Assembly: GCF_019264485.1 (NCBI RefSeq)
Contig: NZ_JAHVAA010000006.1
Location: forward strand, 62,001 to 126,000
Reading direction: 5' to 3'
DNA length: 64,000 nt
Source: Sediminibacterium sp.
GTDB taxonomy: Bacteria; Bacteroidota; Bacteroidia; Chitinophagales; Chitinophagaceae
Positions within the stretch are counted from its first letter, which is position 1. Each line of letters begins with the position of its first letter. The notes beneath the pieces are model-generated. The model worked only from the letters and a program-made list of their open reading frames with translations, did not search any database and was not told the origin of the DNA. This document shows positions 4,779 to 55,075 of this stretch, one piece after another. Made by a program: the position numbers and the translations under genes.

Positions 4779-4827
4779 GAGAAAACCCGTACTTTTAAAT
4801 ACAATATCCCTAATAGTCACACTGAAT

Positions 4828-5199
4828 ATGAAAATTCTTGTAGCCGAAGATGAACCAATGTTGTTAAAAACGATTGAGCTGAAGCTGAAGAAAGAAGGCT
4901 ATGAAGTAATTACAACTCATGACGGAAGAGAAGCCATCGCTAAAATTGAGGAACTGTCGCCCGATCTGGTAATATCAGATATCATGATGCCATATGCATC
5001 GGGTCTTGAGATAACAGCACTTTTAAAACAAAAGATGGAAAAACAAATTCCTATTATCATTCTTTCGGCCATGGAACAGGAGAAAGTAGTGATGGAAGCT
5101 TTTGAACTGGGAGCGGATGATTATATAACAAAACCGTTTAGTCTGAATGAATTATCCATCCGTGTTAAAAGACTGATGGCACGCCTGGGTAAATCCTGA
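4828..5199 (+). CDS. Single-domain response regulator (CheY-like)
   Basis: A 123-residue receiver domain without an output domain. The acidic pair ED at residues 7-8, phospho-acceptor D51 in ISDIMMP, the conserved Ser in ILSA and Lys in TKPF are all present. Standing between the hybrid kinase and the YaiO-like barrel, in the same orientation with short gaps, it is likely the partner that accepts phosphate from the HPt domain and acts by protein contact rather than DNA binding. The target is unknown; the membrane protein at 6469 or the glycosyltransferase fusion on the opposite strand are candidates. Confidence 0.92.
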   Translation: MKILVAEDEPMLLKTIELKLKKEGYEVITTHDGREAIAKIEELSPDLVISDIMMPYASGLEITALLKQKMEKQIPIIILSAMEQEKVVMEAFELGADDYITKPFSLNELSIRVKRLMARLGKS

Positions 5200-5224
5200 T
5201 GATCCACAACTTAGTAAGTAAGTT

Positions 5225-6487
5225 ATGCGCCTACCAACACTCTTTACCTGTTTTTGTTTTACCCTGATGATGTTCACTGCTGTAAAAGCAACTTCGCAGG
5301 CCGATACTACCAGTTCAGATGGTTTGCTCCTTGCTGCCAAAGCAGCAGCATTTAATGAGGACAACTACCCCAAAGCAAAAACCTATCTGTACAAAGCCAT
5401 TGCAAAAAGCCCGAACTATGCCGATCTCCGTGTTTTCCTGGGTAGGATTTATACCTGGACCAAAAACTACGACAGTGCCCGCATTTGTTTTGAAGAAGTA
5501 TTGAGGCAAAGTCCGGGCTATGAAGATGCCTGTATGGCTTATGCCGACATGACTTACTGGAGCGATGATTACAAGCAATCATTAACAGTATCGGAAGAGG
5601 GTCTCAAGTATCATCCTAAATCGGAAGGGCTATTATTGAGGAAGGCAAGGGTATTAAATTTCATGCGCAGGTTTCAGGAGGCTGATAAAACCATTGAGGA
5701 ACTGGTTAAACTCAATAAAAATAATACCGAAGCAAGAGCCTTGGCAAATCGGATCAGGGAGAATGCCACCAAAAATAAAATTGGGGTGAGTTACGATTTT
5801 GTAAGTTTTGATAAACAGTTTGCTGACCCCTGGCACCTCGTAAGTGTAGACTATGGACGTACAACAGGTATTGGTTCCATAACCGGCAGGGTTACTTATG
5901 CGAATCGGTTCAAGACAGACGGTTATCAGTATGAACTGGAAGCATACCCCCGTATATCCAACACTTTTTACAGTTATGTAGGTGTAGGTTATTCAGATCA
6001 GGTAGGCGTATTTCCGCAATGGCGTGGAGGGTTTTCGTTATATGCCAATCTTCCAAAAAGTTATGAAGCTGAATTAGGGATACGTTACCTGAAATTCAGT
6101 GGAAATCCTACATGGGTGTATACAGGTTATATTGGCAAGTATTATAAAAGCTGGCTTTTTGGTGCAAGAACCTATATTACTCCCAGCACTTTTACCAGTA
6201 CCGTATCCTCTTCTTACAATATATCTGCCCGTTATTATTATGCCAGTGCCGATGATATGTTAGGGTTTAATGTGGGTTATGGTATTTCTCCCGACGATAG
6301 GTTTAATGCCATACAGATTAATGGGAACACAAAACTCATTTCTTACAAGGCCGGAATCATGTTTAGAAAAAAAGTAGCACGGTTTAATGTATTCACGATT
6401 GATGGAAGCTGGTTTAATCAGGAATACCTGCCTAAGACCATCGGTAATCAGTATCAATTCAGTGTTGCATGGCTCAGAAGATTTTAG
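5225..6487 (+). CDS. YaiO-family outer membrane beta-barrel protein with TPR domain
   Basis: A 420-residue secreted protein: signal peptide at 1-25, tetratricopeptide repeats at about 30-170 (NYADLRVFLGRIYTWTKNYDSA and following repeats), and a C-terminal region of alternating aromatic beta strands (190-420) ending in a terminal strand with the last residue Phe, as expected for a barrel inserted by the BAM machinery. YaiO-family barrels are found with exopolysaccharide synthases, where TPR plus barrel modules serve in export (compare PgaA, BcsC). Its last 19 bp overlap the next gene, which suggests translational coupling. The substrate is not known. Confidence 0.85.
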   Translation: MRLPTLFTCFCFTLMMFTAVKATSQADTTSSDGLLLAAKAAAFNEDNYPKAKTYLYKAIAKSPNYADLRVFLGRIYTWTKNYDSARICFEEVLRQSPGYEDACMAYADMTYWSDDYKQSLTVSEEGLKYHPKSEGLLLRKARVLNFMRRFQEADKTIEELVKLNKNNTEARALANRIRENATKNKIGVSYDFVSFDKQFADPWHLVSVDYGRTTGIGSITGRVTYANRFKTDGYQYELEAYPRISNTFYSYVGVGYSDQVGVFPQWRGGFSLYANLPKSYEAELGIRYLKFSGNPTWVYTGYIGKYYKSWLFGARTYITPSTFTSTVSSSYNISARYYYASADDMLGFNVGYGISPDDRFNAIQINGNTKLISYKAGIMFRKKVARFNVFTIDGSWFNQEYLPKTIGNQYQFSVAWLRRF

Positions 6488-7665
6488 GACAAAAATCCAC
6501 CCGCATCAGATTATCCTGGAGAGGCTTTCTGGCACTTGCCCTGTTTTTATTCCCTTTCTGGATGCTGCTGTTATGGCATTTTACACCCAACAGAGAGCTA
6601 TTGATAGCCATTATTGATAAAACAGTGGTAGCACAACCCGGTCAGGAGCATCTTTCACTGCATTGGGTATTGAACCAGGAAAAATTCAGCAAGAACAAAA
6701 CGGAACTGTATGATCCTAACCAGGATTATTTTGGTTTTTTCCCGCTGGAAAAAGAGCAATACAAATTAAAAGGACTGGAGCGGTTTAATATAGCTCAACT
6801 GAACGACCTGAGTAACCGTGCTGATGCAACTTATATAACAGATGCATATGGTGTTTTCAGGAATGAATGGTTTAAGGTAGGTAATGATCAGGATCGTTCG
6901 GGTATTGTGTATGGGGGCATGAGCAGGCAGGATCTTTTTTTGCTGCAGAAAATGAAAGAAAAAAAGAAGCTCATCATTACAGAGTTTAACTCCATCGGCT
7001 CTCCAACAGATACTGCTATCCGCCAACAGTTTGAACAGCTTTTCGATATTACATGGTCGGGCTGGATAGGAAGATACTTTGAATCCTTCGATACTACGGT
7101 TAACAAAGAATTACCTCCATGGCTTATCCGTAATTATAAACGCACCCATAATGATAAGTGGCCGTTTAAAAACAGCGGTATTGCTCTTATTCATGCAGCA
7201 AACGATCAGGTAGTAATTCTTGAAAATAAAACACATCTCGATAATGAGCTGCCCTTTATCTATACAAATACTGAAGGAAAAGACCACTATGGTATGCCCG
7301 ACAAAATAAAGTATTCATTCTGGTTCGATATTATCAGTGTTAATAATAAAACCAACGATGTGCTTTCAGAATTTGTGATTGATGTAAATGAAGCTGGTGC
7401 CCGCGAATTGGCAAAGTTTAATATTCCTGCCCGCTTCCCGGCTATTACATCGCATGTCGACGACGACTACCGGTTTTTTTATTTCTCTGCCGATTTTTGT
7501 GATAACCCGGTAACCCTTACTTCTTCTTATTTTAAAGGGGTAGGTTATTTTAAATGGATGATGTATACACGGAGAGATGCCCTTGAACGAAAAAGTTTTT
7601 TCTGGAAATTATACCGCCCGCTATTGACAACTATTCTGAATGATTATTACGATTCGCTGCAATAA
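6469..7665 (+). CDS. Uncharacterised membrane-anchored protein, polysaccharide cluster
   Basis: I do not recognise the family. The 398-residue protein has a basic N-terminus and one hydrophobic helix (about 18-38), followed by a large soluble region that should lie in the periplasm. Segments such as IVYGGMSRQDLFLL and KLIITEFNSIGSPTD look like an alpha/beta fold with a possible ligand-binding site, but no catalytic motif can be named. It overlaps the YaiO-like gene by 19 bp and ends 4 bp from the convergent glycosyltransferase fusion. Inference: an inner-membrane partner for export or modification of the polysaccharide. Confidence 0.75.
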   Translation: MAQKILGQKSTRIRLSWRGFLALALFLFPFWMLLLWHFTPNRELLIAIIDKTVVAQPGQEHLSLHWVLNQEKFSKNKTELYDPNQDYFGFFPLEKEQYKLKGLERFNIAQLNDLSNRADATYITDAYGVFRNEWFKVGNDQDRSGIVYGGMSRQDLFLLQKMKEKKKLIITEFNSIGSPTDTAIRQQFEQLFDITWSGWIGRYFESFDTTVNKELPPWLIRNYKRTHNDKWPFKNSGIALIHAANDQVVILENKTHLDNELPFIYTNTEGKDHYGMPDKIKYSFWFDIISVNNKTNDVLSEFVIDVNEAGARELAKFNIPARFPAITSHVDDDYRFFYFSADFCDNPVTLTSSYFKGVGYFKWMMYTRRDALERKSFFWKLYRPLLTTILNDYYDSLQ

Positions 7666-7669
7666 TCAT

Positions 7670-10600
7670 TTATTGCCTGCCATATTTTCTAACTAAGCTG
7701 TCTGGCAATAAACGGCCATTCGTTACAAAGTCCTGGTTTTTCTTTTTGAATCGGTTAAAAGCTGATTTGAGTGCAAACTTTTTCTCTGGTATATTTTCTG
7801 GTTCAAGGTCCATATTGGGCCTGATTTTAAATACGGCATCCCCATTCAGCATATATTCTCCACGAATAAAATCAATTAATTCGGGTTTGGTTTGTTTAAG
7901 CGGTATAGAATGAATGTTTCTGAATTTTTTTGCGGTATCAACCCCTGTTCCAACCCATGCATTGATATCAGGTATATTCAAACCATAACTATATTTCAAC
8001 CAGGCGCTAAGGGTAGGTGCAATATCGAAGTGACTGGATATGGATGAAAACTTCTCGGTTTTACGAAGTAATGGTGAATAAATAAACAAGGGAACATGGT
8101 ACCTGTCTATCTTGGTACTCATAGGTATCTCAGGCATACGGTGATCTCCGGTGATCAGGAAAACAGTATTGGCAAAATCGGGTCGCTTGCTGTATGCATT
8201 GATAAATTGCTGAATGGCATGATCGGCATATAAAATGCTTGCGTATTGTTTGGTGTAATTCCGGTAACTCTTTTTTTGTGCTTCAGAAAACTTCAACTCA
8301 CTCATCCTTTTTTCAAAGCGGTCAGTATAAACCGCTTCATTATTGATGAGAAAGGGACTATGGGTAGCAACGGTAAGTATAATCTTTAAAGAAGGAGATA
8401 AAGTAGCTGTATCTGTAAGCGCATATTTAAATAATGAAGCATCTTCATATCCCCAGCTAAAGCCGGAAGTAGAAGCCGGAAGCTGCTGATAGCCATTCTG
8501 CGGGAAGCTTTTCTCATCATTCACCCGATCAATACCGCTTTTGTTGAGAAAGGCAGACATATTATCAAAAGAGGCATCACCACCATAATAGAAGGAGGTT
8601 TTATAACCATTACGTTTTAAAAGACTGATGAGTGATATATGTTCGGGCATTTCATCACCCAGTTCAGTAAATCCATTTGGGCCAAAAGGCAAAGACCCTA
8701 ATAAAGCTGGTAATACCCCAAATGTTCTACCGCTGGTACTTAAAAAATTCTCCCAGTACAGACTTTTTAAAGATAGTGAATCAAGATAAGGCGTAAAGCT
8801 TCCGAGATAAGCATTCTCATTGCTAAAAGCACGCCCAAGACCTTCAACCAGTACGATCACAATATTTGGGGGAACAGAATCTTTTTTATTAAAGAAAGGA
8901 GCCAATACATTTTTTGTACTGTCTGACTGGTGTAAGAATGGGTAATTGTTTTTATCGATCAACCTGTTTTCATAAGCGGCATTTGCGAGAAAATCATCTC
9001 CGTAAATATCATCTTCTTCAGCCGAAGGGAAGAACTGATCATAGGAAGCTTTGTAAAAAAAATATGACTTATTCAGGGAAAGATTATTACTGTATTCATG
9101 ACCGGGTAACATGTTTTCTGTAACCTTGGTAAGGTTGCGAATACCACCTGTTACAACGATTAAAATGAAAAACACAACAATTCCATCGTTGGGTAATAAG
9201 AGACGTGGCAATTTGATTAATGTAAATACAAATAAGCTGGTAGCTGCAACCAATAATAGAATGGTAATCAGGTTTAATCCGCCTGAAGCACCAACTGTTT
9301 GTTCTATATCGGCCCAGGAATAACTCCAGAGATCGGCACCCAGCGGCACCAGCGATGTAACAAAATATTGAGATAAGGCAACCTGTATGAGTGTGAGCAG
9401 TGTGCCAAAAATAATAAAACTGACATGCGCTGTTTTCTTGCCAATCAGAAAAAGGGCAGTGAAGGGTAAATAACCCCAGATGGTGATGAGTGTGGCAAAA
9501 GCAACATCTTTCGCCAGCCCGTACCAGATAATTTTATCGAGATATTGTGGTTTACCGTGTTCAAAATAATCAATACCCAGTTCTATACCACGTGCTACAA
9601 ACAGTAATAATAACAACACCAGTATATGACCCATATAATACCGGAACGATTCAAACAATACTTCAGGAACTTTTGAGATAAAGGGTGCAATCTTTCTTTT
9701 ATAGAATGATTCTTTTGGTAAGTCAGCAGTTTCTTCAACTGTTTCAGGCACTACTATTACGGGCTCGGGAGTAATAATAACGGGTGCTGCTTCAATGAGC
9801 ACGGGTGTAGTATCAGCAGGTTTTTTTGCAAAACCCTGTCTCGTCATTTCACCCCAGGCTTTTTTCTTTCTGATATAATCAATATACCCTTTGATAGCAC
9901 TCCATACCACAAAAGGATGAAAATAGAAAGGCTCTGTTAAAGCCGTCAACAGCAGTATAAGAATATCTGTTCGTCGTTTGTACTGGTTATAAGTAATTAC
10001 TTCCATTAATATGGCAAAGGCAGAATAGAGATAACCAAACGAAACAATAAATAGCAGGTAGGAAAAGAAAAAGCCCCAGTCGAGTAAACCAAATGCCGCA
10101 AAAATAAAAAAGCAAACAAAGCCAAAGAATTCAATCACCGGTGCACACATTTCAAAGAAAAACCAATAAGGATAACTCAGCATACCGAGTAGGCCATATT
10201 TGGGGTTGAAGAACATTTTCTTGTGAAACTTTAGCGTTTCAATGGTTCCTCTTGTCCAGCGGTTTCTTTGACGGCCCAGAATATTAAATGAATTGGGGGC
10301 TTCTGTCCAGCAAAGCGGATCGGGGATATAGGTTACCCGATATTTCTCGTTTCTTTCTTCCATATACCTCCTCATCCTCACTACGAGTTCCATATCTTCT
10401 CCAACGGTGTTATGGTCGTACCCTCCCGCTTTAATAGCTATTTCTTTATCAAAAGCGCCAAAAGCACCCGAAATAAGCATTAAACCGTTCAGGCGGCTCC
10501 AGGCCATTCTTCCGAGAATAAATGCACGGATATATTCAAGGATCTGCATCCTCGGTAAATAGTCGGTAGCCAGTTTTACTTTTACCAGTTTACCATCTTC

Positions 10601-11245
10601 AATGATGCAGGAGTTGGCAATACGAACCACACCCCCCGACGCAATTACTTTTTCGTTTGTCTGTTCCAGAAAAGGCTTTACCATTTTCAGTAGTGCATCC
10701 TGTTCAAGTATACAGTCTACGTCAATACAGACTAAGTATTTATTGGAGGCGATATTAATACCCACATTCAATGCATCTGCCTTACCACCATTTACTTTAT
10801 CAACTACAAGCAGCTTATGAAAAATCGGATTGCGGCTTTTATAAACACCACGTACTTCTTTTGTTTTTATTTTATAGTCAACGAAATAGTCGATTTTCTC
10901 AAGGTCATATGCTGCAATCATTTTTTGCAGACAGTCGTCCTTACTTCCATCGTTGATAACAATCAGTTCAAGGTTCACATAATAAATAGATAATAATGAC
11001 CTGATATTTTCTACAATGGTCATACCCTCATTATAAGCAGGCGCAAGAATAGTTACGGTAGGAGCATGTACGGAAGAAGCCAGTATACGATAATCGGTAA
11101 AACTGTTTTTGTGAACATATTTTCTGGTTTCGCCAATAGAGAAAATAGCGATGGCGATATAGGATAATAAAAGCAGGGTGGAATAAATAAATATTCCATA
11201 AGTAAGTATATCAAATAATATATCGATTACTAAGTTCCAGTTCAT
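7670..11245 (-). CDS. Fusion of family 2 glycosyltransferase and LtaS-like phosphoglycerol transferase
   Basis: A 1191-residue two-module membrane protein. The N-terminal module is a processive GT2 synthase like PgaC or hyaluronan synthase: TM at 12-36, GT core 60-335 with LAPAYNEG (67-74), D175/D177 in the DVD motif, catalytic ED at 283-284 and QRNRW at 326-330, then TM helices to about 470. A Pro/Val-rich linker (about 478-512) leads to a second module with further TM helices (530-760) and a C-terminal alkaline-phosphatase-like domain of the LTA synthase type (from about 790), showing IVLVEGLG, the nucleophile region STSGRTFG and the metal motif ITGDHRMPE. It starts inside the stop codon of the HEAT-repeat gene (ATGA overlap). 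The fusion implies that a glycan is polymerised and decorated with phosphoglycerol or phosphoethanolamine by one polypeptide (inference). Confidence 0.9.
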   Translation of the reverse strand: MNWNLVIDILFDILTYGIFIYSTLLLLSYIAIAIFSIGETRKYVHKNSFTDYRILASSVHAPTVTILAPAYNEGMTIVENIRSLLSIYYVNLELIVINDGSKDDCLQKMIAAYDLEKIDYFVDYKIKTKEVRGVYKSRNPIFHKLLVVDKVNGGKADALNVGINIASNKYLVCIDVDCILEQDALLKMVKPFLEQTNEKVIASGGVVRIANSCIIEDGKLVKVKLATDYLPRMQILEYIRAFILGRMAWSRLNGLMLISGAFGAFDKEIAIKAGGYDHNTVGEDMELVVRMRRYMEERNEKYRVTYIPDPLCWTEAPNSFNILGRQRNRWTRGTIETLKFHKKMFFNPKYGLLGMLSYPYWFFFEMCAPVIEFFGFVCFFIFAAFGLLDWGFFFSYLLFIVSFGYLYSAFAILMEVITYNQYKRRTDILILLLTALTEPFYFHPFVVWSAIKGYIDYIRKKKAWGEMTRQGFAKKPADTTPVLIEAAPVIITPEPVIVVPETVEETADLPKESFYKRKIAPFISKVPEVLFESFRYYMGHILVLLLLLFVARGIELGIDYFEHGKPQYLDKIIWYGLAKDVAFATLITIWGYLPFTALFLIGKKTAHVSFIIFGTLLTLIQVALSQYFVTSLVPLGADLWSYSWADIEQTVGASGGLNLITILLLVAATSLFVFTLIKLPRLLLPNDGIVVFFILIVVTGGIRNLTKVTENMLPGHEYSNNLSLNKSYFFYKASYDQFFPSAEEDDIYGDDFLANAAYENRLIDKNNYPFLHQSDSTKNVLAPFFNKKDSVPPNIVIVLVEGLGRAFSNENAYLGSFTPYLDSLSLKSLYWENFLSTSGRTFGVLPALLGSLPFGPNGFTELGDEMPEHISLISLLKRNGYKTSFYYGGDASFDNMSAFLNKSGIDRVNDEKSFPQNGYQQLPASTSGFSWGYEDASLFKYALTDTATLSPSLKIILTVATHSPFLINNEAVYTDRFEKRMSELKFSEAQKKSYRNYTKQYASILYADHAIQQFINAYSKRPDFANTVFLITGDHRMPEIPMSTKIDRYHVPLFIYSPLLRKTEKFSSISSHFDIAPTLSAWLKYSYGLNIPDINAWVGTGVDTAKKFRNIHSIPLKQTKPELIDFIRGEYMLNGDAVFKIRPNMDLEPENIPEKKFALKSAFNRFKKKNQDFVTNGRLLPDSLVRKYGRQ

Positions 11246-24950: not shown

Positions 24951-25006
24951 TTATCGCCACAGATTCACAGATTTTAAACAACTAATCTGTGAATCTGTGG
25001 CGATAA
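24951..25006. repeat. Perfect inverted repeat, family C (23-nt arms)
   Basis: Arms 24951-24973 and 24984-25006 are exact reverse complements with a 10-nt loop. The arm sequence GCCACAGATTCACAGATT recurs at 45477. It lies between divergent units, so it is not a terminator for either. Confidence 0.85.
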
Positions 25007-25038
25007 AATACTTGCCCGATTGCAAAGCAACTTTTTAT

Positions 25039-25135: not shown

Positions 25136-25630
25136 ATGATACCATTACCATTGGTGATACCCGAAACACCCAAAATTGCAAAGACAGATTTTGCAAAAGT
25201 GTTCAGAAATCCTGCTACGGGTCATCATTCTTTACACGCTGCAGCATTCTTCGATACAGGAGATTTAATCTGTTCTTTTTCGGCACAGGAAACCTACACC
25301 ACACCCAGTTATCTTACTTTGCAAACAGGATTGCACAAACATATTTCTTTATCACCAGACTGTTTACAATACACCAATCATAGTTGCGACCCAAATGTTT
25401 TTTTTGATACGGATAAAATGGAGCTTATTGCACTTCGTTCCATACAGCCTGATGATGAATTAGTATTTTTTTATCCATCTACTGAATGGCAGATGGCTTC
25501 ACCTTTTTCATGTAATTGTGGTAGTGTAAAATGCCTCGGAACAATAGCAGGTGCAGCAGCTTTGCGACAGGACCAGTTGAATACTTACCGGCTCACTTCT
25601 TTTATTCTGTTACAAATTGAAAACCGATAG
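25136..25630 (+). CDS. SET-domain protein (putative protein-lysine or amine methyltransferase)
   Basis: A 164-residue stand-alone SET domain with post-SET zinc cluster. NHSCDPN at 81-87 forms the pseudoknot and SAM site, Y113 in FFYPSTEW is the likely catalytic Tyr, and C126, C128, C133 (CNCGSVKC) with C84 match the post-SET zinc ligands. SET enzymes methylate amino groups using SAM; in bacteria many substrates are unknown. It is the first gene of a unit with an ATP-grasp ligase (12 bp gap) and an ATP-grasp-SET fusion (6 bp gap). Shorter alternative frames at 25087 lack these motifs. Confidence 0.88.
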   Translation: MIPLPLVIPETPKIAKTDFAKVFRNPATGHHSLHAAAFFDTGDLICSFSAQETYTTPSYLTLQTGLHKHISLSPDCLQYTNHSCDPNVFFDTDKMELIALRSIQPDDELVFFYPSTEWQMASPFSCNCGSVKCLGTIAGAAALRQDQLNTYRLTSFILLQIENR

Positions 25631-25642
25631 TTATTATTGCGC

Positions 25643-26803
25643 ATGCAGATCTACGAGTTAAGTAAAGAGCAAACTACTCAAATCCACGTATGGGTACTGG
25701 CACCATCGCTGCAAACCAATGATCCGAACCTGGATTATTATTACGACTTCTCACAAAGCATTGCTGAGTACACAAAAATATTTTCAGACTTAGGTATTAA
25801 CTGGCAATGGCAACCGGTGACTTTACAGGATTATGCTATTGTGATCAGCAGGATTATTGAGGAAAAAGAAAAGGGGATATATACACCCGTTGTATTGAAT
25901 TTATGCGACGGAGATGAAATCAACGGAACTCCCGGAATTTCTGTGGTGCGTATGCTTGATGCATCGGGATTAATTTATACCGGCGCAGATGCTTTTTTTT
26001 ATGCAATCACCACATCGAAAATACCCATGAAAAAAGCCTTTGATGCAGCTAATGTATCAACAGCGCCCTGGTTACCCATTCATGTGGCGGCAGATGCAGG
26101 AAAAGGATTGTTTGAAAAATTAGGAACACCTGTTATTGTAAAACCATCGGTATCAGGTGGAAGTATGGGTGTAGGTGTACGCAATGTGGTTGATAATATA
26201 AATGACCTTGAGACACAGGTGGCAGCCATGTTTAAAGGCTATCGGGGCTGGGATCTTGCTGTAGATGGATTGATAGCAGAGGCATTTATTGAAGGCCCCG
26301 AATACACCACCATGATTGTAGGTTCCTGGACAGAGCCGCAATATTGCAAAGTGTATAAGGGAGTAGAAAGGGTGTTTCATGCATCATTACCGGAGAAAGA
26401 AAAATTTCTGTCTTTCGACCGCTTATGGGAAATCTATGAAGAAGAAACACCCATGCCGGAAGATGAAAATTTTTATGAATACAGGGAGGCAGACGCATCC
26501 ATACAAAATGAACTGAAAAAATTAAGTCTCGCAGCTTTTCTGGCGGTAAAAGGAACAGGATATACAAGGGTGGATATCAGACAGGATAAAAAGTCGGGAA
26601 AACTATATGTGCTCGAGGTAAATGCACAATGTGGTTTAAGTGAAGATGAAGATTATACTTCTATTGGAGCCATTTTAAAAGTAAACCAGCAAAGTTTTGC
26701 TAATCTTATCATGGAAATCATCGGCGAAGCTATTCACCGTTATACAAAACAAACCGAAGAAAGAACAGCAGCATGGCCTGCCAACAGTTCAGCACGTAGA
26801 TAA
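25643..26803 (+). CDS. ATP-grasp ligase, D-Ala-D-Ala ligase-like
   Basis: A 386-residue ATP-grasp enzyme. The ATP-binding core has PVIVKPSVSGGSMGVGV (about 165-180), EGPEYTTMIVG, and the Mg-binding acidic set with VDIRQDK and LEVNAQCGLS (about 310-340). It differs from housekeeping Ddl by its length, a 90-residue N-terminal domain with LNLCDGDEINGTPGI, and its genomic setting. It should join a carboxylate to an amine with ATP hydrolysis; the substrates are unknown. The ATG at 25643 is chosen over the TTG two codons earlier. Confidence 0.87.
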   Translation: MQIYELSKEQTTQIHVWVLAPSLQTNDPNLDYYYDFSQSIAEYTKIFSDLGINWQWQPVTLQDYAIVISRIIEEKEKGIYTPVVLNLCDGDEINGTPGISVVRMLDASGLIYTGADAFFYAITTSKIPMKKAFDAANVSTAPWLPIHVAADAGKGLFEKLGTPVIVKPSVSGGSMGVGVRNVVDNINDLETQVAAMFKGYRGWDLAVDGLIAEAFIEGPEYTTMIVGSWTEPQYCKVYKGVERVFHASLPEKEKFLSFDRLWEIYEEETPMPEDENFYEYREADASIQNELKKLSLAAFLAVKGTGYTRVDIRQDKKSGKLYVLEVNAQCGLSEDEDYTSIGAILKVNQQSFANLIMEIIGEAIHRYTKQTEERTAAWPANSSARR

Positions 26804-26809
26804 AGGACC

Positions 26810-28279
26810 ATGGAAAAACAGCAAACTACTTTCAACGCAAACTGGGCAGCAGGGAAAAAAATTGCCGTATTGCAACCTGATTATTCAACTACTGATGTTG
26901 ACTATAAAGATTATGATCCGCCACGTAACCTCAGCCATTTATTACCCGGCGCCACAGTGGATCACATTTTTCTGAATAAACTCACTACCTATAAACAATT
27001 AAAAACATTACAATACAAAGGCTACGATATTTTTGTAAATCTCTGTGAAGGATACCTTGAATGGGAAGTACCTTCCATAGATGTAATCTATACACTCGAA
27101 CTGTTAGCACTTCCTTATACCGGTCCAACCACACAACTCTACGATCCTTCCAAAGAAATGATGAAATACCTCGCTTATTGCGAAGGAGTGAATACGCCGG
27201 CCTATTTGCTGGCAGATGAAACAACTGATATAAACAGCATAGCCCTGCTTGGGTTTCCTTTATTTGTAAAACCTGCTAAAGCAGGAGACAGTCTGGGTAT
27301 TGATCAGGCATCACTGGTACACAACAAAGAAGAACTCGGCAAAAAAATTGCATCCTTGGTTCCTGAATACCCGCAGTTGCTGGTGGAACAATATATTGCA
27401 GGAAGAGAATTTACCATACTTATTGCAGCCAATGATGATGGACATACCGCAACTACTTTTCAACCTGTTGAATTTATTTTTCCGGAAGGATACACATTCA
27501 AGACTTATGAACTGAAAACATCGGCCTTACATCCATCTGCAAATATTCCCTGTACGGATCCTGTCATTAACAAAGAACTGAGAGCAGCAGCACAAAAAAT
27601 CTTTAAGGGATTTAATGGTGTGGGTTATGCAAGACTCGATTTCAGGATGGATGAAAAAGGTGTATTGTATTTCCTGGAAATTAATTTTACCTGCTCTGTT
27701 TTTTATACCAATGGCTATGAAGGATCGGCCGATTATATACTGCAATACGATGGTATTGGGCAGGCCGGTTTTTTGCGGCACATGATCCTAGAAGGAATTG
27801 CCAGGCATTTACGCATGCAGAAAAATTACCAGATTAAAGGCAATGCCCTGGCTGGTTATGGCATTTACGCCACAAGAAATATCATGTGTAATGAACTGGT
27901 CTTCAAAGGTGAGGAGCGGGCACAACGCATAGTTACCCGCCGTCAGGTAGAACTGCACTGGAACGATGTTGAAAAAGAAATTTTCAGACGATATGCTTAT
28001 CCCCTGAGTAATGAAGTATTTTTGCTCTGGGACAATGATCCTGCAGCATGGGCTCCCCAAAACCATAGTTGCGAACCCAACACTGCTTATGATGGTTTGA
28101 ATGTTAAAGCCATCAGACCCATACAAAAAGGCGAAGAACTAACCCTCGATTACGCCAGTTTTCTGGACGAACACATGGAGCCCTTTCAATGCCAATGCGG
28201 AAGCACAGGCTGTAGAAAATGGATCACCGGAACACCCGGTAATACCGTTACACTAAGAGAAATGCAACAACGCTCTTAA
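26810..28279 (+). CDS. ATP-grasp ligase fused to a C-terminal SET domain
   Basis: A 489-residue bifunctional protein. Residues 1-335 are a D-Ala-D-Ala-ligase-like ATP-grasp domain: FVNLCEGYLEWEVPS (75-89), the ATP-binding FVKPAKAGDSLGI (152-164), and Mg ligands in RLDFRMD (275-281) and LEINFTC (289-295). Residues 342-470 are a SET domain with GYGIYATR (349-356), NHSCEPN (418-424), DYASF (447-451) and a post-SET CQCGSTGC (461-468). The same two activities are encoded as separate proteins just upstream, so ligation and methylation must act in one pathway. The intact motifs argue that both halves are active. The product is unknown. Confidence 0.9.
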   Translation: MEKQQTTFNANWAAGKKIAVLQPDYSTTDVDYKDYDPPRNLSHLLPGATVDHIFLNKLTTYKQLKTLQYKGYDIFVNLCEGYLEWEVPSIDVIYTLELLALPYTGPTTQLYDPSKEMMKYLAYCEGVNTPAYLLADETTDINSIALLGFPLFVKPAKAGDSLGIDQASLVHNKEELGKKIASLVPEYPQLLVEQYIAGREFTILIAANDDGHTATTFQPVEFIFPEGYTFKTYELKTSALHPSANIPCTDPVINKELRAAAQKIFKGFNGVGYARLDFRMDEKGVLYFLEINFTCSVFYTNGYEGSADYILQYDGIGQAGFLRHMILEGIARHLRMQKNYQIKGNALAGYGIYATRNIMCNELVFKGEERAQRIVTRRQVELHWNDVEKEIFRRYAYPLSNEVFLLWDNDPAAWAPQNHSCEPNTAYDGLNVKAIRPIQKGEELTLDYASFLDEHMEPFQCQCGSTGCRKWITGTPGNTVTLREMQQRS

Positions 28280-28373
28280 ACTACTGCAGAAGGAAATTGT
28301 CCAACTACTAACCCAATCATCACCGGTGTATTATCGGTAACAGGTGCCTGTAACCTGATTGTTCATTATTTGA

Positions 28374-29309
28374 ATGAAAGGAATTGTTATGTTAGAAATG
28401 AATGTCTTGAGCAAACTGATTCGTCAGCATAAAATGCGACTGGGTGTTACCTATCTGCTGTTTTCACTTGAAATGACGGGTGCCTTATTGCGCCCCTTTT
28501 TTCTGGGTATGGCCATTAACGATCTGATGCAGGGTTCTTATCGCGGACTTATTATACTATCAGCCGTGCATTTTGCCTGGCTGGTAATCGGTACGATCAG
28601 GCATCGATATGATACAAGAACTTATTCCACTATTTACACATCGCTGGTTACAAAGTTTTTATCAAAAAGAATCAAGTCGGCTGAAGTATCAAAATTGAGT
28701 GCACACTCAACACTGGCAAGGGAGTTTGTTGATTTTCTGGAGTTTGATCTTGTGTATATTATAGAAGCATTCTACAATATAGTAGGGTCAATGATTCTAT
28801 TGTTCTTTTACCAGTCGTCGGTGGTGTTTTTGTGTCTTGCTATATTATTACCTGTAATGGCCATCAGTTATATCTATGGTAAAAAAATGAAACGACTCAC
28901 CCGATTAAAAAACGATGAGCTGGAAAAACAGGTAAACATCATCTCATCGGGCGATAATAAAGCCATTCACCGGCATTTTAATAACCTTCGCAAATGGCAG
29001 ATACGCATCAGCGACCAGGAAGCCTGGAACTTTGGTATCATGGAAATGATGGTAATGGTAGTTATAGCAGTATCCTTACTCATTACCAACCAGGTAACGG
29101 GTACAACCGTATTGGCGGGGCATATTATTGGCATTTATAACTATATCCTCAAGTTTGTATCGGGTTTGGATACCATTCCATACACGGTTCAACGTATCAC
29201 GGCACTGAACGATATTACACAAAGGATACAGTTGCAGATGAATGAGCAAGAGGAAGAAATAAGTCCTTCATCAGTGCCATCTATCAAACCGAGAGAGAGC
29301 GCAGCCTGA
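28374..29309 (+). CDS. ABC transporter-like six-TM protein without ATPase domain
   Basis: A 311-residue membrane protein with about six helices (22-40, 53-75, 137-160, 163-183, 240-262 and a weaker one near 268-290), resembling the ABC_membrane_3 family (exporter-type TM domain). There is no Walker A or signature motif here or in the adjacent genes, so it either recruits an ATPase encoded elsewhere or works without one. It follows the ATP-grasp-SET gene after 94 bp in the same direction; that gap contains an imperfect hairpin at 28336-28355. Export of the operon's product is a reasonable but unproven idea. Confidence 0.75.
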   Translation: MKGIVMLEMNVLSKLIRQHKMRLGVTYLLFSLEMTGALLRPFFLGMAINDLMQGSYRGLIILSAVHFAWLVIGTIRHRYDTRTYSTIYTSLVTKFLSKRIKSAEVSKLSAHSTLAREFVDFLEFDLVYIIEAFYNIVGSMILLFFYQSSVVFLCLAILLPVMAISYIYGKKMKRLTRLKNDELEKQVNIISSGDNKAIHRHFNNLRKWQIRISDQEAWNFGIMEMMVMVVIAVSLLITNQVTGTTVLAGHIIGIYNYILKFVSGLDTIPYTVQRITALNDITQRIQLQMNEQEEEISPSSVPSIKPRESAA

Positions 29310-45998: not shown

Positions 45999-46739
45999 AT
46001 GTCACAAGTTCACAATAGCAGCACTGCTGCAGCTTTACAACAACAAATACGGGATCGCTCTATTGAAGAGGCGATACAATTACTCGTGGCAGCATACCCG
46101 GGTGCGGTAACTTTCTCTACCAGTTTTAGTTATGAGGATCAGGTGATAACTGATATCATTCAAACCCATGAGTTCCCGGTATCATTATTTACACTCGATA
46201 CAGGTCGTCTTTTTCCTGAAACCTATAGCACCTGGAGCCGTACGCTGGAATTTTATAAAACCAGTATCAAAGCCTATTATCCCGATGCGCAGGCATTGTC
46301 TGATTATATAGAAACCAATGGCCCCAACGCATTTTATGATTCACCGGAACTGAGATCAGCCTGTTGTACCATCCGAAAAGTGATACCGCTGAAAAAAGCA
46401 TTGGCAGGTAATGCCATCTGGATCACAGGTTTGAGGGCAGAACATTCACCTGCACGACATGATCTCACACCCATTGAATGGGATGCGGCGAATCAAATAA
46501 TAAAATATCATCCATTACTACACTGGACAACCGAAGAAGTAAAACAGTATATCCATCAAAAAGCCATACCCTATAATCCTTTACACGATAAAGGTTTTGT
46601 GAGCATTGGTTGTGCACCCTGTACAAGGGCTATTAAACCGGGAGAAGATTTCAGGGCGGGTCGCTGGTGGTGGGAAGACAATAGTAAAAAAGAATGTGGA
46701 TTGCATTCGCATGAACCTAAAAAAACAGCAGAAGCATGA
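45999..46739 (+). CDS. cysH: Assimilatory adenylyl-sulfate (APS/PAPS) reductase
   Basis: A 246-residue thioredoxin-dependent reductase that makes sulfite from activated sulfate. The substrate region includes FSTSFSYEDQ and TLDTGRLFPET; C122-C123 and C205-x2-C208 are the ligands of a [4Fe-4S] cluster, and the catalytic Cys is C233 in KKECGLH. The cluster cysteines mark the APS-reductase (bacterial type) rather than the cluster-free PAPS enzyme, consistent with the absence of an APS kinase in the island. Its stop overlaps the cysD start by 4 bp. Confidence 0.95.
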   Translation: MSQVHNSSTAAALQQQIRDRSIEEAIQLLVAAYPGAVTFSTSFSYEDQVITDIIQTHEFPVSLFTLDTGRLFPETYSTWSRTLEFYKTSIKAYYPDAQALSDYIETNGPNAFYDSPELRSACCTIRKVIPLKKALAGNAIWITGLRAEHSPARHDLTPIEWDAANQIIKYHPLLHWTTEEVKQYIHQKAIPYNPLHDKGFVSIGCAPCTRAIKPGEDFRAGRWWWEDNSKKECGLHSHEPKKTAEA

Positions 46740-47644
46740 GTGCGTACAGATTAGATTATTTAGATCAGCTAGAATCGGAAGCCATACATATTATGCGTGA
46801 AGTGGCCGGGCAGTTTGAAAAACCTGCACTTTTATTTAGTGGGGGTAAGGATTCAATTACGCTGGTACACCTTGCCCTGAAAGCATTTCGTCCGGGTAAA
46901 TTTCCTTTTCCACTGGTGCATATTGATACGGGCCACAATTTTCCCGAAGCCTTACAGTTCAGGGATGAACTGGCGGCAACTATTGGTGAAAAATTAGTGG
47001 TACGTAAGGTAGAAGACACCATCAAATCCAGACAACTTACCGAGCCCAAAGGAAAGTTTGCCAGCAGAAATGCATTGCAGACCTATACTTTACTTGATAC
47101 GATAGAGGAATTTGGTTTCGATGCCTGTATCGGTGGTGCGCGAAGAGATGAAGAGAAAGCAAGGGCCAAGGAAAGAATATTTTCAGTGAGAGATGAATTT
47201 GGTCAATGGAACCCCAAGCTCCAGCGCCCCGAATTATGGAACACCTATAATGGCCGGATCAGTAAGGGAGAAAATGTGCGGGTGTTTCCTATCAGTAACT
47301 GGACGGAACTGGATATCTGGAATTATATCAAAAGAGAAAATATTGCATTACCCTCTATTTATTTCGCACACGAGCGTACTGTTTTGGAACATGAAGGACA
47401 ATTGATTGCCTTATCTGAATTTATACAACTGGATGATACAGATTCAATCGTTACCAAAAAAGTACGCTACCGTACTGTTGGCGATATGACCTGTACGGCC
47501 GCTGTAGAATCAAGTGCATCAGGCATTGACGATATCATCCGCGAAATTACCGCCACTAAAACAAGTGAGCGTGGTGAAACCAGAATTGATGATAAAGTAA
47601 GTGAAGCGGCGATGGAAGACAGAAAAAAGAATGGTTATTTCTAA
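46736..47644 (+). CDS. cysD: Sulfate adenylyltransferase subunit 2
   Basis: A 302-residue ATP-sulfurylase small subunit: PP-loop LLFSGGKDSITLVHLALKA (about 32-50), VHIDTGHNFPE and GGARRDEEKARAKERIFSVRD, ending with the family tail AAMEDRKKNGYF. Uses ATP to adenylate sulfate together with CysN. Coupled to cysH by an ATGA overlap; cysN follows after 11 bp. Confidence 0.97.
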   Translation: MSAYRLDYLDQLESEAIHIMREVAGQFEKPALLFSGGKDSITLVHLALKAFRPGKFPFPLVHIDTGHNFPEALQFRDELAATIGEKLVVRKVEDTIKSRQLTEPKGKFASRNALQTYTLLDTIEEFGFDACIGGARRDEEKARAKERIFSVRDEFGQWNPKLQRPELWNTYNGRISKGENVRVFPISNWTELDIWNYIKRENIALPSIYFAHERTVLEHEGQLIALSEFIQLDDTDSIVTKKVRYRTVGDMTCTAAVESSASGIDDIIREITATKTSERGETRIDDKVSEAAMEDRKKNGYF

Positions 47645-47655
47645 AAACAAAACAA

Positions 47656-48897
47656 ATGGACTTACTCCGATTTATAACAGCTGGCAGTGTAGATGATGGT
47701 AAATCGACCCTGATTGGGCGTTTACTGTTCGACAGTAAATCAATCATGATCGATCACCTCGAAGCCCTGGAAAAACAAAGTAAAAACAAGGAAGATGGTG
47801 AGATTGATCTTGCGCTATTGACCGATGGTTTGCGTGCAGAACGTGAACAGGGTATTACCATTGATGTGGCTTACAAATATTTTGCTACACCCAAACGTAA
47901 ATTTATCATTGCCGATGCGCCGGGTCATATTCAGTATACAAGGAATATGGTAACGGGTGCCTCCAATTCAGACCTGGCAATTATTCTTGTTGATGCACGT
48001 CATGGTGTGGTAGAGCAAACACGTCGCCATTCCATCATCACTTCTTTGCTGAATATTCCACATGTGGTGGTGGCGATTAACAAAATGGACCTGGTAGATT
48101 TTTCGCAGGATGTGTACAATAATATCGTGATTGACTATGCAGAAGTGGCGAAAAAACTCGGCCTGAAAGACGTTCGTTATATTCCTATCAGTGCATTGAA
48201 TGGCGATAATATAGTAGCAAAAACAGCAGCATTAACATGGTACGAGGGTCCTTCATTACTGGATATCCTGGAAACGGTAGAGCTTGCAGACGATATTGAT
48301 CTGGAAAAAGCCCGTTTCCCTGTTCAATATGTCATTCGACCACAGACAGAAGAACTGCATGATTATCGTGGTTATGCCGGAAAAATTAACAGCGGTATTT
48401 ATAAAAAGGGAGATGCTGTAACGATATTACCTGCAGGTTTCAGCAGTACCATAAAAGCCATTGAACACAATGGAAAAGAAGTAGACGAAGCATTTGCACC
48501 ACAGAGTGTGGTAATACACCTGGAAGACGATATAGATATCAGCCGCGGTGACCTGATTGTGAAAAATGATAACCGGCCAAAAGTATCGAATGAAGTGGAG
48601 GCGCTATTATGCTGGATGGATCATAAAGCGCTGGTGCCTGGCAATAAATATTTATTACAGATTAACAGCAAGCAGGTTCGTTCGGTGGTAAAAGAGGTAA
48701 GTTATAAACTGGATGTTCATTCATTGGAACAGATAGCATCACCCGAAACAGTAGCATTAAATGATATTGTAAAAGTAACCATTAAAACGGCGAGCCCGGT
48801 AGCATACGATGCTTACCAGGAACTGAGAACCAATGGCGGAGCTATTCTCATTGACGAAACAAGTCATGTTACCGTTGGTGCATGCATGATTCAATAA
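47656..48897 (+). CDS. cysN: Sulfate adenylyltransferase subunit 1 (GTPase)
   Basis: A 413-residue EF-Tu-like GTPase that drives sulfate adenylation. G1 GSVDDGKSTLIGRLLFDSK (about 11-29), G2 region EQGITIDVAYKYF, G3 DAPGHIQYTRNM and G4 NKMDLVD are present, followed by two beta-barrel domains. It ends without an APS-kinase (CysC) domain, as its length shows. Confidence 0.96.
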   Translation: MDLLRFITAGSVDDGKSTLIGRLLFDSKSIMIDHLEALEKQSKNKEDGEIDLALLTDGLRAEREQGITIDVAYKYFATPKRKFIIADAPGHIQYTRNMVTGASNSDLAIILVDARHGVVEQTRRHSIITSLLNIPHVVVAINKMDLVDFSQDVYNNIVIDYAEVAKKLGLKDVRYIPISALNGDNIVAKTAALTWYEGPSLLDILETVELADDIDLEKARFPVQYVIRPQTEELHDYRGYAGKINSGIYKKGDAVTILPAGFSSTIKAIEHNGKEVDEAFAPQSVVIHLEDDIDISRGDLIVKNDNRPKVSNEVEALLCWMDHKALVPGNKYLLQINSKQVRSVVKEVSYKLDVHSLEQIASPETVALNDIVKVTIKTASPVAYDAYQELRTNGGAILIDETSHVTVGACMIQ

Positions 48898-48902
48898 AAA
48901 CT

Positions 48903-49736
48903 ATGGCAGCAGCGCAATTCATACAACAATTATTTCAGCGTAACTGGAAAACACACCAGACTTTCCCGGATAAACAGCTGGCAGAGAGTTTTATAGACGA
49001 CCTGTTCAATTTTTTATTTGGCTCTTACGAAAAAAAATTCAACTCGGCTGAAAAGCTGGCGGTTGAATATGCTGAACTGCGACATACTTTTTCAGCAATC
49101 CTGTTTGAGCTTATCAAAGATGAAACCATTGTAAAAGAACATACAGCTTCTTTCTTTGATAAATTATCTGCTATTTATGAAGCATTACTAAAAGATGCGC
49201 AGGCTGTACTGGAATTTGACCCTGCTGCGCAATCAATTGAAGAAGTGCTGGTAGCTTATCCCGGTTTTTATGCTACTGCTATTTATCGTTTATCGAACCA
49301 GTTGTATCGTCAGCAGATAAAAACATTACCGCGTCTGTTTGCAGAATATGCACACAGTAAAACGGGTATTGATATTCATCCGGGAGCCACCATCGGCGGT
49401 TCATTTGCCATTGATCATGGAACCGGAATCGTAATTGGCGAAACAGCAATCATTGGTGAGCGGGTGAAGATATACCAGGGGGTTACATTGGGTGCATTGA
49501 ATGTAGCCAAGGAACTGGCCAGTACCAAACGTCACCCAACCATTGACGATGATGTAATTATTTATTCCGGTGCTACCATTTTAGGAGGAGAAACAGTGAT
49601 TGGTGCGGGTAGTATAATCGGAGGTAATATATGGCTCACACATAGTGTGGCGCCAAATTCTGTGGTGTATCATAAAAGTGAAATAAAAATAAAAGATAAA
49701 GATCCATTTCCTGAACCATTAAATTTTGTGATTTAA
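48903..49736 (+). CDS. cysE: Serine O-acetyltransferase
   Basis: A 277-residue enzyme that makes O-acetylserine, acceptor of sulfide. The N-terminal helical domain (to about 135) precedes a left-handed beta helix with hexapeptide repeats: IDIHPGATIGGSFAIDHGTG, GVTLGAL, and GATILGGETVIGAGSIIGGN; catalytic Asp and His lie in DHGTG and KRHPTI. The N-terminal part is longer than in E. coli CysE, like EpsC-type forms. The ATG at 48903 lies 5 bp after the cysN stop; an earlier in-frame ATG at 48882 would overlap cysN. Confidence 0.93.
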   Translation: MAAAQFIQQLFQRNWKTHQTFPDKQLAESFIDDLFNFLFGSYEKKFNSAEKLAVEYAELRHTFSAILFELIKDETIVKEHTASFFDKLSAIYEALLKDAQAVLEFDPAAQSIEEVLVAYPGFYATAIYRLSNQLYRQQIKTLPRLFAEYAHSKTGIDIHPGATIGGSFAIDHGTGIVIGETAIIGERVKIYQGVTLGALNVAKELASTKRHPTIDDDVIIYSGATILGGETVIGAGSIIGGNIWLTHSVAPNSVVYHKSEIKIKDKDPFPEPLNFVI

Positions 49737-49745
49737 AAAAATAAC

Positions 49746-50657
49746 ATGAAAGCAAATAACATTTTAGCAACGATTGGTAATACACCACATGTTCGCATCA
49801 ACAAATTATTTGGCAGTCAGCATGAAGTATGGATTAAGCTGGAAAAAAACAATCCGGGTGCAAGCATCAAAGATCGTATTGCATTGTCGATGATTGAAGA
49901 TGCAGAACTGAAAGGTCTGCTTACCAAAGACAGTGTAATTATTGAACCTACCAGTGGTAATACCGGAATTGGACTGGCGTTGGTGGCTGCAGTAAAAGGC
50001 TATAAAATTATTCTGGTGATGCCCGAGAGCATGAGTATTGAGCGGAGAAGACTGATGGCTTTGTACGGAGCAGAATTTGTATTAACGCCACGCGAAAAGG
50101 GAATGAAGGGCGCTATTGAAAAAGCAACCGAACTAACTGAAACCACCCCACATGCATGGATGCCCCAGCAGTTTAATAATCCGGCCAATACAGAAGTACA
50201 CAAAAGAACAACAGCACTGGAGATACTGGCCGATTTTCCGGAAGGGCTGGATTATCTTATTACAGGCGTTGGTACGGGTGGACATATTACCGGTGTTGCG
50301 GAAATACTGAAAGAGAAGTTTCCATCACTCAAAGTATTTGCGGTGGAGCCTGAACTATCACCGGTATTAAGTGGTGGTGCTCCCTCACCACACCCTTTGC
50401 AGGGTATTGGTGCGGGTTTCGTTCCATCTATTTTAAATACAGCTGTACTGGATGGTATTATACTGGTTGGTAAAGATGAGGCTTTCTCTTTCGCACAGCG
50501 TGCGGCAAAAGAAGAAGGTATTTTGCTGGGTGTATCATCGGGCGCATCATTGGCTGCGGTAGCAAAAAAATTACCCGAAATACCGGCAGGTTCCAAAGTG
50601 CTCACTTTTAACTATGATACAGGGGAAAGATATTTATCTATTGAAGGATTATTTTAA
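49746..50657 (+). CDS. Cysteine synthase (O-acetylserine sulfhydrylase)
   Basis: A 303-residue fold-type II PLP enzyme. PLP Lys in [12 protein letters not shown] (about 37-48), substrate loop [10 protein letters not shown], phosphate loop [10 protein letters not shown] and the C-terminal GVSSGAS are all present. It condenses O-acetylserine with sulfide to give cysteine. CysK and CysM cannot be separated with confidence from sequence; it ends the first cys transcription unit, before a terminator. Confidence 0.95.
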
Positions 50658-50665
50658 TTTCTTTT

Positions 50666-50703
50666 CCCTGCTCCGGATTTAAATCCTGAGCAGGGATTTT
50701 TTT
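50666..50703 (+). terminator. Terminator after cysteine synthase
   Basis: The 15-nt arms 50666-50680 and 50681-50695 pair with one mismatched pair and are followed by a T-run. The centre GGATTTAAATCC equals the centre of the palindrome at 16271. Confidence 0.85.
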
Positions 50704-50714
50704 AGCAATAATAA

Positions 50715-50731
50715 TCTACTAAAAAAGTAGA
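50715..50731 (+). promoter_or_regulatory. 17-bp sulfur-operator candidate before cobA
   Basis: TCTACT-AAAAA-AGTAGA, perfect 6-nt arms, ends 2 bp before the start codon. It matches in spacing and sequence the sites at 45597 and 55056. The position would block transcription or initiation of translation if occupied. Confidence 0.6.
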
Positions 50732-50733
50732 CA

Positions 50734-51588
50734 ATGAGTAAGCAACCAACATATGGCAAAGTAATCCTCGCATCAGCAGGCCCTGGCGATCCCGAACTGG
50801 TAACAGTGAAAACGGTTCGCTGGCTGCAACAGGCTGATGTAGTATTAACAGATCGTTTGGTGAGCCCGGATATTCTTACCAATTACGTGAACAATAAAAC
50901 GGAGATCATCTATGTGGGTAAACAATGCCGCAGAGGAATATCTACTTCGCAGCAAACCATCAATGAATTATTGGTTGAGCAGGCATCAAAAAATAAAATT
51001 GTGGTTCGTTTAAAAGGAGGTGATACCAGTATTTTCTCCAATGTACTTGATGAACTGGAAACATTGGTGCAACACAATATTCCTTACGAAATAGTTCCGG
51101 GTGTAACGGCAGCCTTGGGTGCAGCAGCTTATGCGGGTATTCCCTTAACAGCAAGAGGGTTATCTGTAGGTGTTCGTTTTCTTACCTATTATAAATCTGA
51201 TATTGTTAGCGGCGACACCTGGAAAGAACTTGCAGATACAGATGATACACTGGTATTTTATATGTCTGGAGAAACATTGTCAACCGTAGTGGAACAACTT
51301 ACGCTACATGGTATTGATGCAGCTAAAAAGCTGGCAGTAATAGAACAGGCTACCACTCCCTTACAACAAATTCATACCTGTGATCTTTATCAGTATGCAG
51401 ATCAGTTAAAGGATAAAACATTCCGTTCACCCTCACTGGTCATCATTGGTAAAGTAGTATCGTTGCATGAACAGTTTGCATGGCTACCCAATATAAACAG
51501 TACAGAACATTATTTCACACCTCTTACCGGAAGACTTACTCAGTTAGAAGACACCACAACTAAAAAAAGACATGTTAGCAGAGCCTAA
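50734..51588 (+). CDS. cobA: Uroporphyrinogen-III C-methyltransferase (SUMT)
   Basis: A 284-residue SAM-dependent methyltransferase that makes precorrin-2 for siroheme, the cofactor of sulfite reductase. The N-terminal ILASAGPGDPELVTVKTVRWLQQADVVLTDRLV and the RLKGGDTSIFSNVLDEL motif (about 90-105) identify it; GVTAALGAAAYAGIPLTARG follows. The last 17 bp overlap cysJ. The later steps of siroheme synthesis are provided by the fusion protein at 57961. Confidence 0.95.
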   Translation: MSKQPTYGKVILASAGPGDPELVTVKTVRWLQQADVVLTDRLVSPDILTNYVNNKTEIIYVGKQCRRGISTSQQTINELLVEQASKNKIVVRLKGGDTSIFSNVLDELETLVQHNIPYEIVPGVTAALGAAAYAGIPLTARGLSVGVRFLTYYKSDIVSGDTWKELADTDDTLVFYMSGETLSTVVEQLTLHGIDAAKKLAVIEQATTPLQQIHTCDLYQYADQLKDKTFRSPSLVIIGKVVSLHEQFAWLPNINSTEHYFTPLTGRLTQLEDTTTKKRHVSRA

Positions 51589-53263: not shown

Positions 53264-53302
53264 AATTCACCATTGACCATTCACCCTTCACGAAACACCT
53301 CT

Positions 53303-54961: not shown

Positions 54962-55055
54962 ACCGGTTATATTCAGAGATGCGCAGGTTCAGACTTGCAT
55001 ATGTAAGCATGAGCGATGTTGTAGGTGTTAAAGAATAAAAAATTTATCTTATAAC

Positions 55056-55072
55056 TCTACTAAATTAATAGA
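55056..55072 (+). promoter_or_regulatory. 17-bp sulfur-operator candidate before the TonB receptor
   Basis: TCTACT-AAATT-AATAGA, one mismatch from a perfect 6-5-6 palindrome, ends 3 bp before the start codon. TATCTTAT at 55045-55052, 23 bp after a TTG at 55019, may be the promoter. It links the receptor to the cys genes. Confidence 0.6.
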
Positions 55073-55075
55073 CTA

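Follow-up and report, generated by a model that had tools for sequence, protein, structure and literature searches.

What does a bacterium do with an operon that sets SET domains beside ATP-grasp ligases, and that in one protein joins the two in a single chain? SET domains are familiar chiefly from enzymes that methylate lysines in proteins, and amide-forming ATP-grasp pathways are of a known kind. An operon combining them lies in the window analysed here, a 64,000 nucleotide stretch of the 3.64-Mb genome of a member of the Chitinophagaceae (Sediminibacterium sp.). An earlier reading of the letters alone (the sequence-only reading) had proposed that two ligases and two methyltransferases build and N-methylate a peptide-like metabolite or else modify a protein tail, with a membrane protein as a possible exporter. 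The answer that we favour, at slightly better than an even chance, is a self-contained, dedicated cytosolic pathway leading to a methylated peptide-like small molecule of two or three units. We observe directly the domains, the intactness of the catalytic residues, the gene order of the operon, its co-inheritance and purifying selection; all chemistry past what the domains themselves tell, as well as which substrates are used and how the steps follow one another, we infer.

The operon comprises four genes on the plus strand. SET1 (25136-25630) encodes a stand-alone, BurB-like SET-domain protein of 164 amino acids, characterised by its PF00856 match, invariant motifs and nearest solved relative (BurB), with an N81-H82-S83-C84 motif, Tyr113 and post-SET Cys126, Cys128 and Cys133. 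AG1, which ends at 26803 and begins at a TTG at 25637 or, more likely, at the ATG at 25643, encodes an ATP-grasp ligase with the fold of D-Ala-D-Ala ligase (Ddl) and the acceptor loop NAQCG, including the invariant Cys332. The 489 amino acid product of AGS (26810-28279) is a second Ddl-fold ATP-grasp ligase, fused to a C-terminal SET domain: the ligase part, delimited by structure match range and alignment, spans residues about 14-341 (26849-27832) and has the loop NFTCS with invariant Cys295, and the SET and post-SET part spans residues about 349-474 (27854-28231), with N418-H419-S420-C421, Tyr448 and Cys461, Cys463 and Cys468. The fourth gene, TM (28374-29309), encodes a six-helix ABC transmembrane protein of 311 amino acids without an ATPase domain, whose homologues start in alignment at the Met at 28389. 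Gaps of 12 bp (6 bp from the TTG start) between SET1 and AG1, 6 bp between AG1 and AGS and 94 bp between AGS and TM bear out the layout given in the sequence-only reading, three tightly spaced genes followed by a six-helix membrane protein.

The presence of two Ddl-like ligase domains and two SET domains, as had been proposed, is confirmed by Pfam scores above cut-off for SET in SET1 (35 bits, cut-off 22.4), Dala_Dala_lig_C in AG1 (52.9 bits, cut-off 24) and both domains in AGS (78.8 and 40.4 bits, cut-offs 24 and 22.4, respectively). TM matches ABC_membrane_3 (PF13748) at 153 bits (cut-off 27) and PF00664 at 33 bits. The motifs reported as intact are so: NHSCDPN and NHSCEPN, the catalytic Tyr, the post-SET CxCx4C and the ATP-grasp Arg/Asp/Glu/Asn ligands are all found in the window proteins, and the catalytic residues are mostly invariant in alignments of 29 AGS, 22 AG1 and 23 SET1 sequences. 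Comparison with two close relatives gives dN/dS values of 0.04-0.09 for all four genes, indicating strong purifying selection; among named organisms, the nearest relative found was Sediminibacterium goheungense, with 88% identity in the fusion protein. Between SET1 and the divergent upstream gene lies a near-perfect inverted repeat (24955-25008; TTATCGCCACAGATTCACAGATT...AATCTGTGAATCTGTGGCGATAA). The genome has 45 copies of its core, CACAGATTCACAGATT, frequently arranged in inverted pairs, so that this is a dispersed repeat family.

Is this arrangement peculiar to one genome? Synteny was assessed in 61 loci holding an AGS homologue. AG1 lies on the same strand as AGS in 50 of these, with conserved order and a median gap of 9.5 bp. 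In 38 loci SET1 forms a pair with AG1, at a median gap of 4 bp, and in 24 TM is found 3' of AGS. Beyond TM, no further consistent neighbour gene was apparent among the AGS loci, recurrent clusters being judged by eye; the Rid and alanine-racemase/threonine-aldolase-like genes upstream are beside the operon in a single locus of the set (L035, from S. goheungense). Three loci carry an additional gene between AG1 and AGS, each identified by eye: a DNA-methyltransferase-like gene with a TSPPYN motif (L061, 10381-11981), a gene for a P-loop protein (L066, 8143-9135) and a small toxin-like ORF (L080, 10223-10504).

Phyletic patterns were surveyed in 149 genomes drawn from the Chitinophagaceae. AGS is present in 46 and AG1 in the identical 46 plus G195, where it lies at a contig end. 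A SET1 orthologue accompanies AGS in 45 of the 46, the sole exception being G201, in which AG1 begins at base 91 of its contig; outside the 46, SET1 occurs in G195 and G197. In four genomes (G154, G082, G180 and G114) SET1 is unlinked yet present. TM was found in 21 of the 149 genomes, every one of which has AG1, and in two it lies on another contig. The probability of such overlap under independence is 7e-38 for AGS and AG1 and 6e-13 for TM, figures from which shared ancestry has not been removed. With AG1 and AGS in conserved order at 50 loci, coinciding phyletic patterns and dN/dS values of only 0.04-0.09, SET1, AG1 and AGS constitute a real syntenic, co-inherited unit, far beyond chance; the co-inheritance of TM with this module is likewise real. 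The sequence-only reading had suggested a search for co-occurrence of SET and ATP-grasp genes across Bacteroidota, and that search revealed strong synteny rather than scattered homologues. Since the three genes are co-inherited across many Bacteroidota, they probably make up a pathway whose product is a small, methylated, peptide-like molecule.

AGS is present in 18 of 37 genomes of the genus, and across the phylum (395 genomes) full-length fusions were found in four other Bacteroidota families, that of the green sulfur bacteria among them. In a genome from one other family (G413) the fusion is 58% identical and a TM orthologue lies on another contig (E 3e-142). The genus g172 has the fusion in nine genomes, at about 38% identity, and in five of 31 in a wider draw; we take this genus to be green sulfur bacteria because bchI, bchD and bchH adjoin the operon in L120. 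Complete loci from the green sulfur bacteria (L115-L122) consist of SET1, AGS, a complete ABC exporter (ABC_membrane plus ABC_tran) and a second small SET gene, with no AG1. The occurrence of SET1 and AGS in both Chitinophagaceae and the green sulfur lineage identifies these two as the common core, and since AG1 is missing from the latter and from three other loci, two ligases are not always needed. Outside Bacteroidota, a plasmid search for fusions gave single-domain matches only. At locus L113 (genome G412, 4541-10292), AGS is followed on the same strand by genes for an N-formylglutamate amidohydrolase, a MATCAP-family peptidase and a glutathione-synthetase-like ATP-grasp protein.

What kind of ligases are AG1 and AGS? 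AlphaFold models of AGS and AG1 (pLDDT 86.5 and 88.6) both find their best structure matches in Ddl, at Z 29.3 and rmsd 2.5 over 286 residues for AGS, whose match list is filled by the Ddl domain, includes no SET match and is uninformative on the SET part. Ddl has in common with both proteins the fold and the catalytic Arg, Asp, Glu and Asn residues. This fold, together with weak Ddl/Van profile scores, would suit a cell-wall variant in which AG1 and AGS act as Ddl/Van-type ligases for an altered peptidoglycan dipeptide. We regard that as highly improbable, however, given that the best curated NCBIfam Ddl scores (86.1 and 90.3 bits) fall far below the respective cut-offs (243 and 245.65), that the genome's own Ddl is a separate gene (G000:C8:548330), that no mur or van genes are linked at the AGS loci and that, to our knowledge, SET enzymes have no wall role. 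The acceptor loop, too, is altered. It reads NTVPG in the genome's Ddl as against NAQCG in AG1 and NFTCS in AGS, with a Cys that is invariant in both families where Ddl has Pro; neither ligase has the EVNTxPG of the D-Ala acceptor loop. Unlike AGS, moreover, Ddl has no SET fusion, and its operon context differs from that of either ligase. With curated cut-offs failed, the acceptor loop altered and a separate Ddl in the genome, we rejected the possibility that AG1 and AGS are ordinary Ddl, in agreement with the sequence-only reading: they are enzymes other than Ddl, built on its fold. In Ddl a Ser holds the acceptor carboxylate; its counterpart seems to be S342 in AG1 and S306 in AGS, making an amino-acid-like acceptor plausible.

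Relatives of the ligases that lack SET partners offer a further clue. In L125, L126 and L130, a tandem pair of Ddl-like ATP-grasp genes (24-31% identity to AGS) is accompanied by genes for a GNAT acetyltransferase and a lysine 2,3-aminomutase homologue. Like the SET-linked module, these operons combine two adjacent Ddl-like ligases with amino-acid-modifying enzymes, but they have GNAT and radical-SAM enzymes instead of SET domains; no function for them was found in the literature searched. Other relatives without SET are single and lie beside diaminopropionate synthesis and KamA genes. As gene contexts, these point to small products made from modified amino acids.

The methylation step had been framed in the sequence-only reading by the general statement that SET enzymes methylate amines. 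That premise is weakened by the profile comparisons, in which SET1 scores 72.8 bits against BurB (PDB 9l4t), a methionine S-methyltransferase encoded in a Burkholderia toxin pathway, and no more than 38.8 bits against even the best-matching histone-lysine methyltransferase. As SET1 is nearest to BurB rather than to a histone methyltransferase, amine methylation cannot safely be assumed. The SET domain of AGS is less clear-cut (60.6 bits for BurB, 56.4 bits for KMT2D). As a control, ordinary SET proteins from the bacterial family find KMT2A at 88.7 bits, with BurB outside the top 60. SET1 and BurB/MSMT have TLQ...H.H and Y.STE segments in common. BurB S-methylates free methionine, binding it mostly via main-chain contacts, and contacts SAM through His72, Arg133 and His138 (PMC12542666), residues that are not kept in the window SET1, where Leu60, Ser122 and Asn127 stand in their place. 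BurB also has LHSC where SET1 has NHSC with an invariant Asn81, and the SET1 substrate may therefore differ from that of BurB. The partners of SET1, unlike those of BurB/MSMT, are ATP-grasp ligases, and no DMSP-pathway genes recur beside it (recurrent clusters again judged by eye). BurB nevertheless provides a precedent for a SET domain acting on a free amino acid, and on this comparison SET1 is likelier to act on a small molecule than on a histone-like substrate, with S- and N-methylation of an amino acid both compatible.

SET enzymes classically act on proteins, however, and the main rival explanation is that the ligases add amino acids to the end or a side chain of a protein and the SET domains methylate that same protein, making the module a bacterial counterpart of the TTL/TTLL enzymes. 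Human TTLL12 does combine SET-like and TTL (ATP-grasp) domains in one protein, as AGS combines SET and ATP-grasp domains, but in the opposite order and with the TTL rather than the Ddl fold; no TTL domain (PF03133) is among the Pfam matches of AG1 and AGS at E 1. The SET-like domain of TTLL12 lacks a critical Asn, and no methyltransferase activity has been found for it. The G412 locus, where AGS adjoins the amidohydrolase, MATCAP-family peptidase and glutathione-synthetase-like genes described above, would also fit protein modification, but MATCAP occurs in one of the 149 family genomes, and that genome has no AGS; we have rejected the MATCAP link as a general feature. SET1 is nearest to a free-amino-acid enzyme, and a conserved, linked gene for a target protein was not found at the AGS loci. 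Overall we judge modification of a protein to be unlikely, and for the protein tail of the sequence-only reading little speaks beyond domain analogy.

The last gene, TM, had been read as a possible exporter. TM and its homologues are about 285-325 amino acids long and consist of a six-helix ABC region with no ATPase domain: PF13748 is present in all 15 TM members scanned and ABC_tran matches none of these 15. Nor was a nucleotide-binding domain gene found recurrently beside TM at the AGS loci. As the homologues are equally short, the missing nucleotide-binding domain is a property of the family rather than a truncation, and without an ATPase domain TM is at most a putative exporter in the Chitinophagaceae lineage. 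The six-helix ABC region thus stands, and the green sulfur version of the operon does have a complete ABC exporter, but for TM itself export is doubtful and on domain content the label 'exporter' is not justified. A derivation of TM by decay of the green sulfur exporter was rejected, there being no alignable similarity between them (BLASTP). Distant, PF13748-like relatives of TM (L190-L191, L193-L205) occur in many Bacteroidota, mostly short, without an ATPase domain and beside varied, unrelated genes.

How might these proteins work together? In the small-molecule pathway that we favour, the BurB-like SET1 would transfer a methyl group from SAM to an amino-acid building block, at a thioether S or a side-chain N. 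By Ddl-type chemistry, AG1 and the ATP-grasp domain of AGS would convert a carboxylate to its acyl-phosphate and join this to an acceptor resembling an amino acid, forming one amide bond apiece in succession, and the SET domain of AGS would methylate the substrate or product of that protein's own ligation. TM would act with them at the membrane and may ease the passage of the product across it, though alone it cannot power transport. Several observations argue for this pathway: the order and tight spacing of AG1 and AGS kept in 50 loci, the near-identical phyletic patterns of AGS, AG1 and SET1 even where SET1 is unlinked, the joining of a ligase to a methyltransferase within AGS, and the retention of Ddl fold and catalytic residues by enzymes whose acceptor loop has changed, in a genome that encodes its own Ddl besides. 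To these can be added the closeness of SET1 to a free-amino-acid enzyme when KMT2A is the nearest match for the family's ordinary SET proteins, the ligase relatives adjoining lysine aminomutase and GNAT or diaminopropionate genes, and the complete ABC exporter of the green sulfur operon. Against it can be set the Asn in the NHSC motif of SET1 where BurB has Leu, the near-equal closeness of the AGS SET domain to KMT2D and BurB, the absence of AG1 from the green sulfur bacteria and three other loci, and a TM without an ATPase domain. Of the N-methylated peptide-like metabolite proposed earlier, the co-inherited ligase and SET unit is well founded, N-methylation is weakened and the product is a predicted one.

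Could the peptide instead be gene-encoded? Graspetides owe their maturation to ATP-grasp enzymes, often with a transporter alongside (PMC8939145), so that the module, with its ligases and transporter-like gene, might be a graspetide-like RiPP system in which ATP-grasp proteins cyclise, and SET proteins methylate, a ribosomal precursor. No small ORF (20-120 amino acids) recurs within 1.5 kb of 61 operons, however, apart from ssb and noise, and this absence of a conserved precursor-peptide ORF also favours the small-molecule pathway, although a precursor might be unlinked. AG1 and AGS have the Ddl fold and Ddl-type catalytic residues, and the module has SET proteins in place of other methyltransferases. 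We therefore consider a graspetide-like system very unlikely.

A SET-linked, amide-forming ATP-grasp pathway is probably undescribed in the open literature searched, where we found no account of SET and ATP-grasp joined in a bacterial pathway; an earlier mention is possible, a 2009 review of ATP-grasp amidoligases lying outside that literature. More tentatively, and at somewhat less than an even chance, Chitinophagaceae, green sulfur bacteria and other Bacteroidota may have in common an undescribed route to a methylated, possibly sulfonium, peptide metabolite: SET enzymes would have free amino acids or dipeptides as their substrates, ATP-grasp ligases would put these together, and one of the enzymes would be ligase and methyltransferase at once. 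A co-inherited module of SET and ATP-grasp proteins that includes such a fusion would place SET proteins in a second, widespread small-molecule context, and it predicts that environmental Bacteroidota make methylated peptide metabolites of a new class.

Two other regions of the window deserve mention. At 7670-11245, a 1191 amino acid protein joins a family-2 glycosyltransferase to a sulfatase-type domain. An assimilatory sulfate-reduction run occupies 45999-59496, with genes for two PAPS_reduct proteins, an EF-Tu-type GTPase (CysN-like), a PALP protein (cysteine synthase-like), a tetrapyrrole methylase, a flavodoxin/FAD reductase and a sulfite reductase, and it also includes a siroheme-synthase NAD-binding domain fused to a TauE sulfite exporter.
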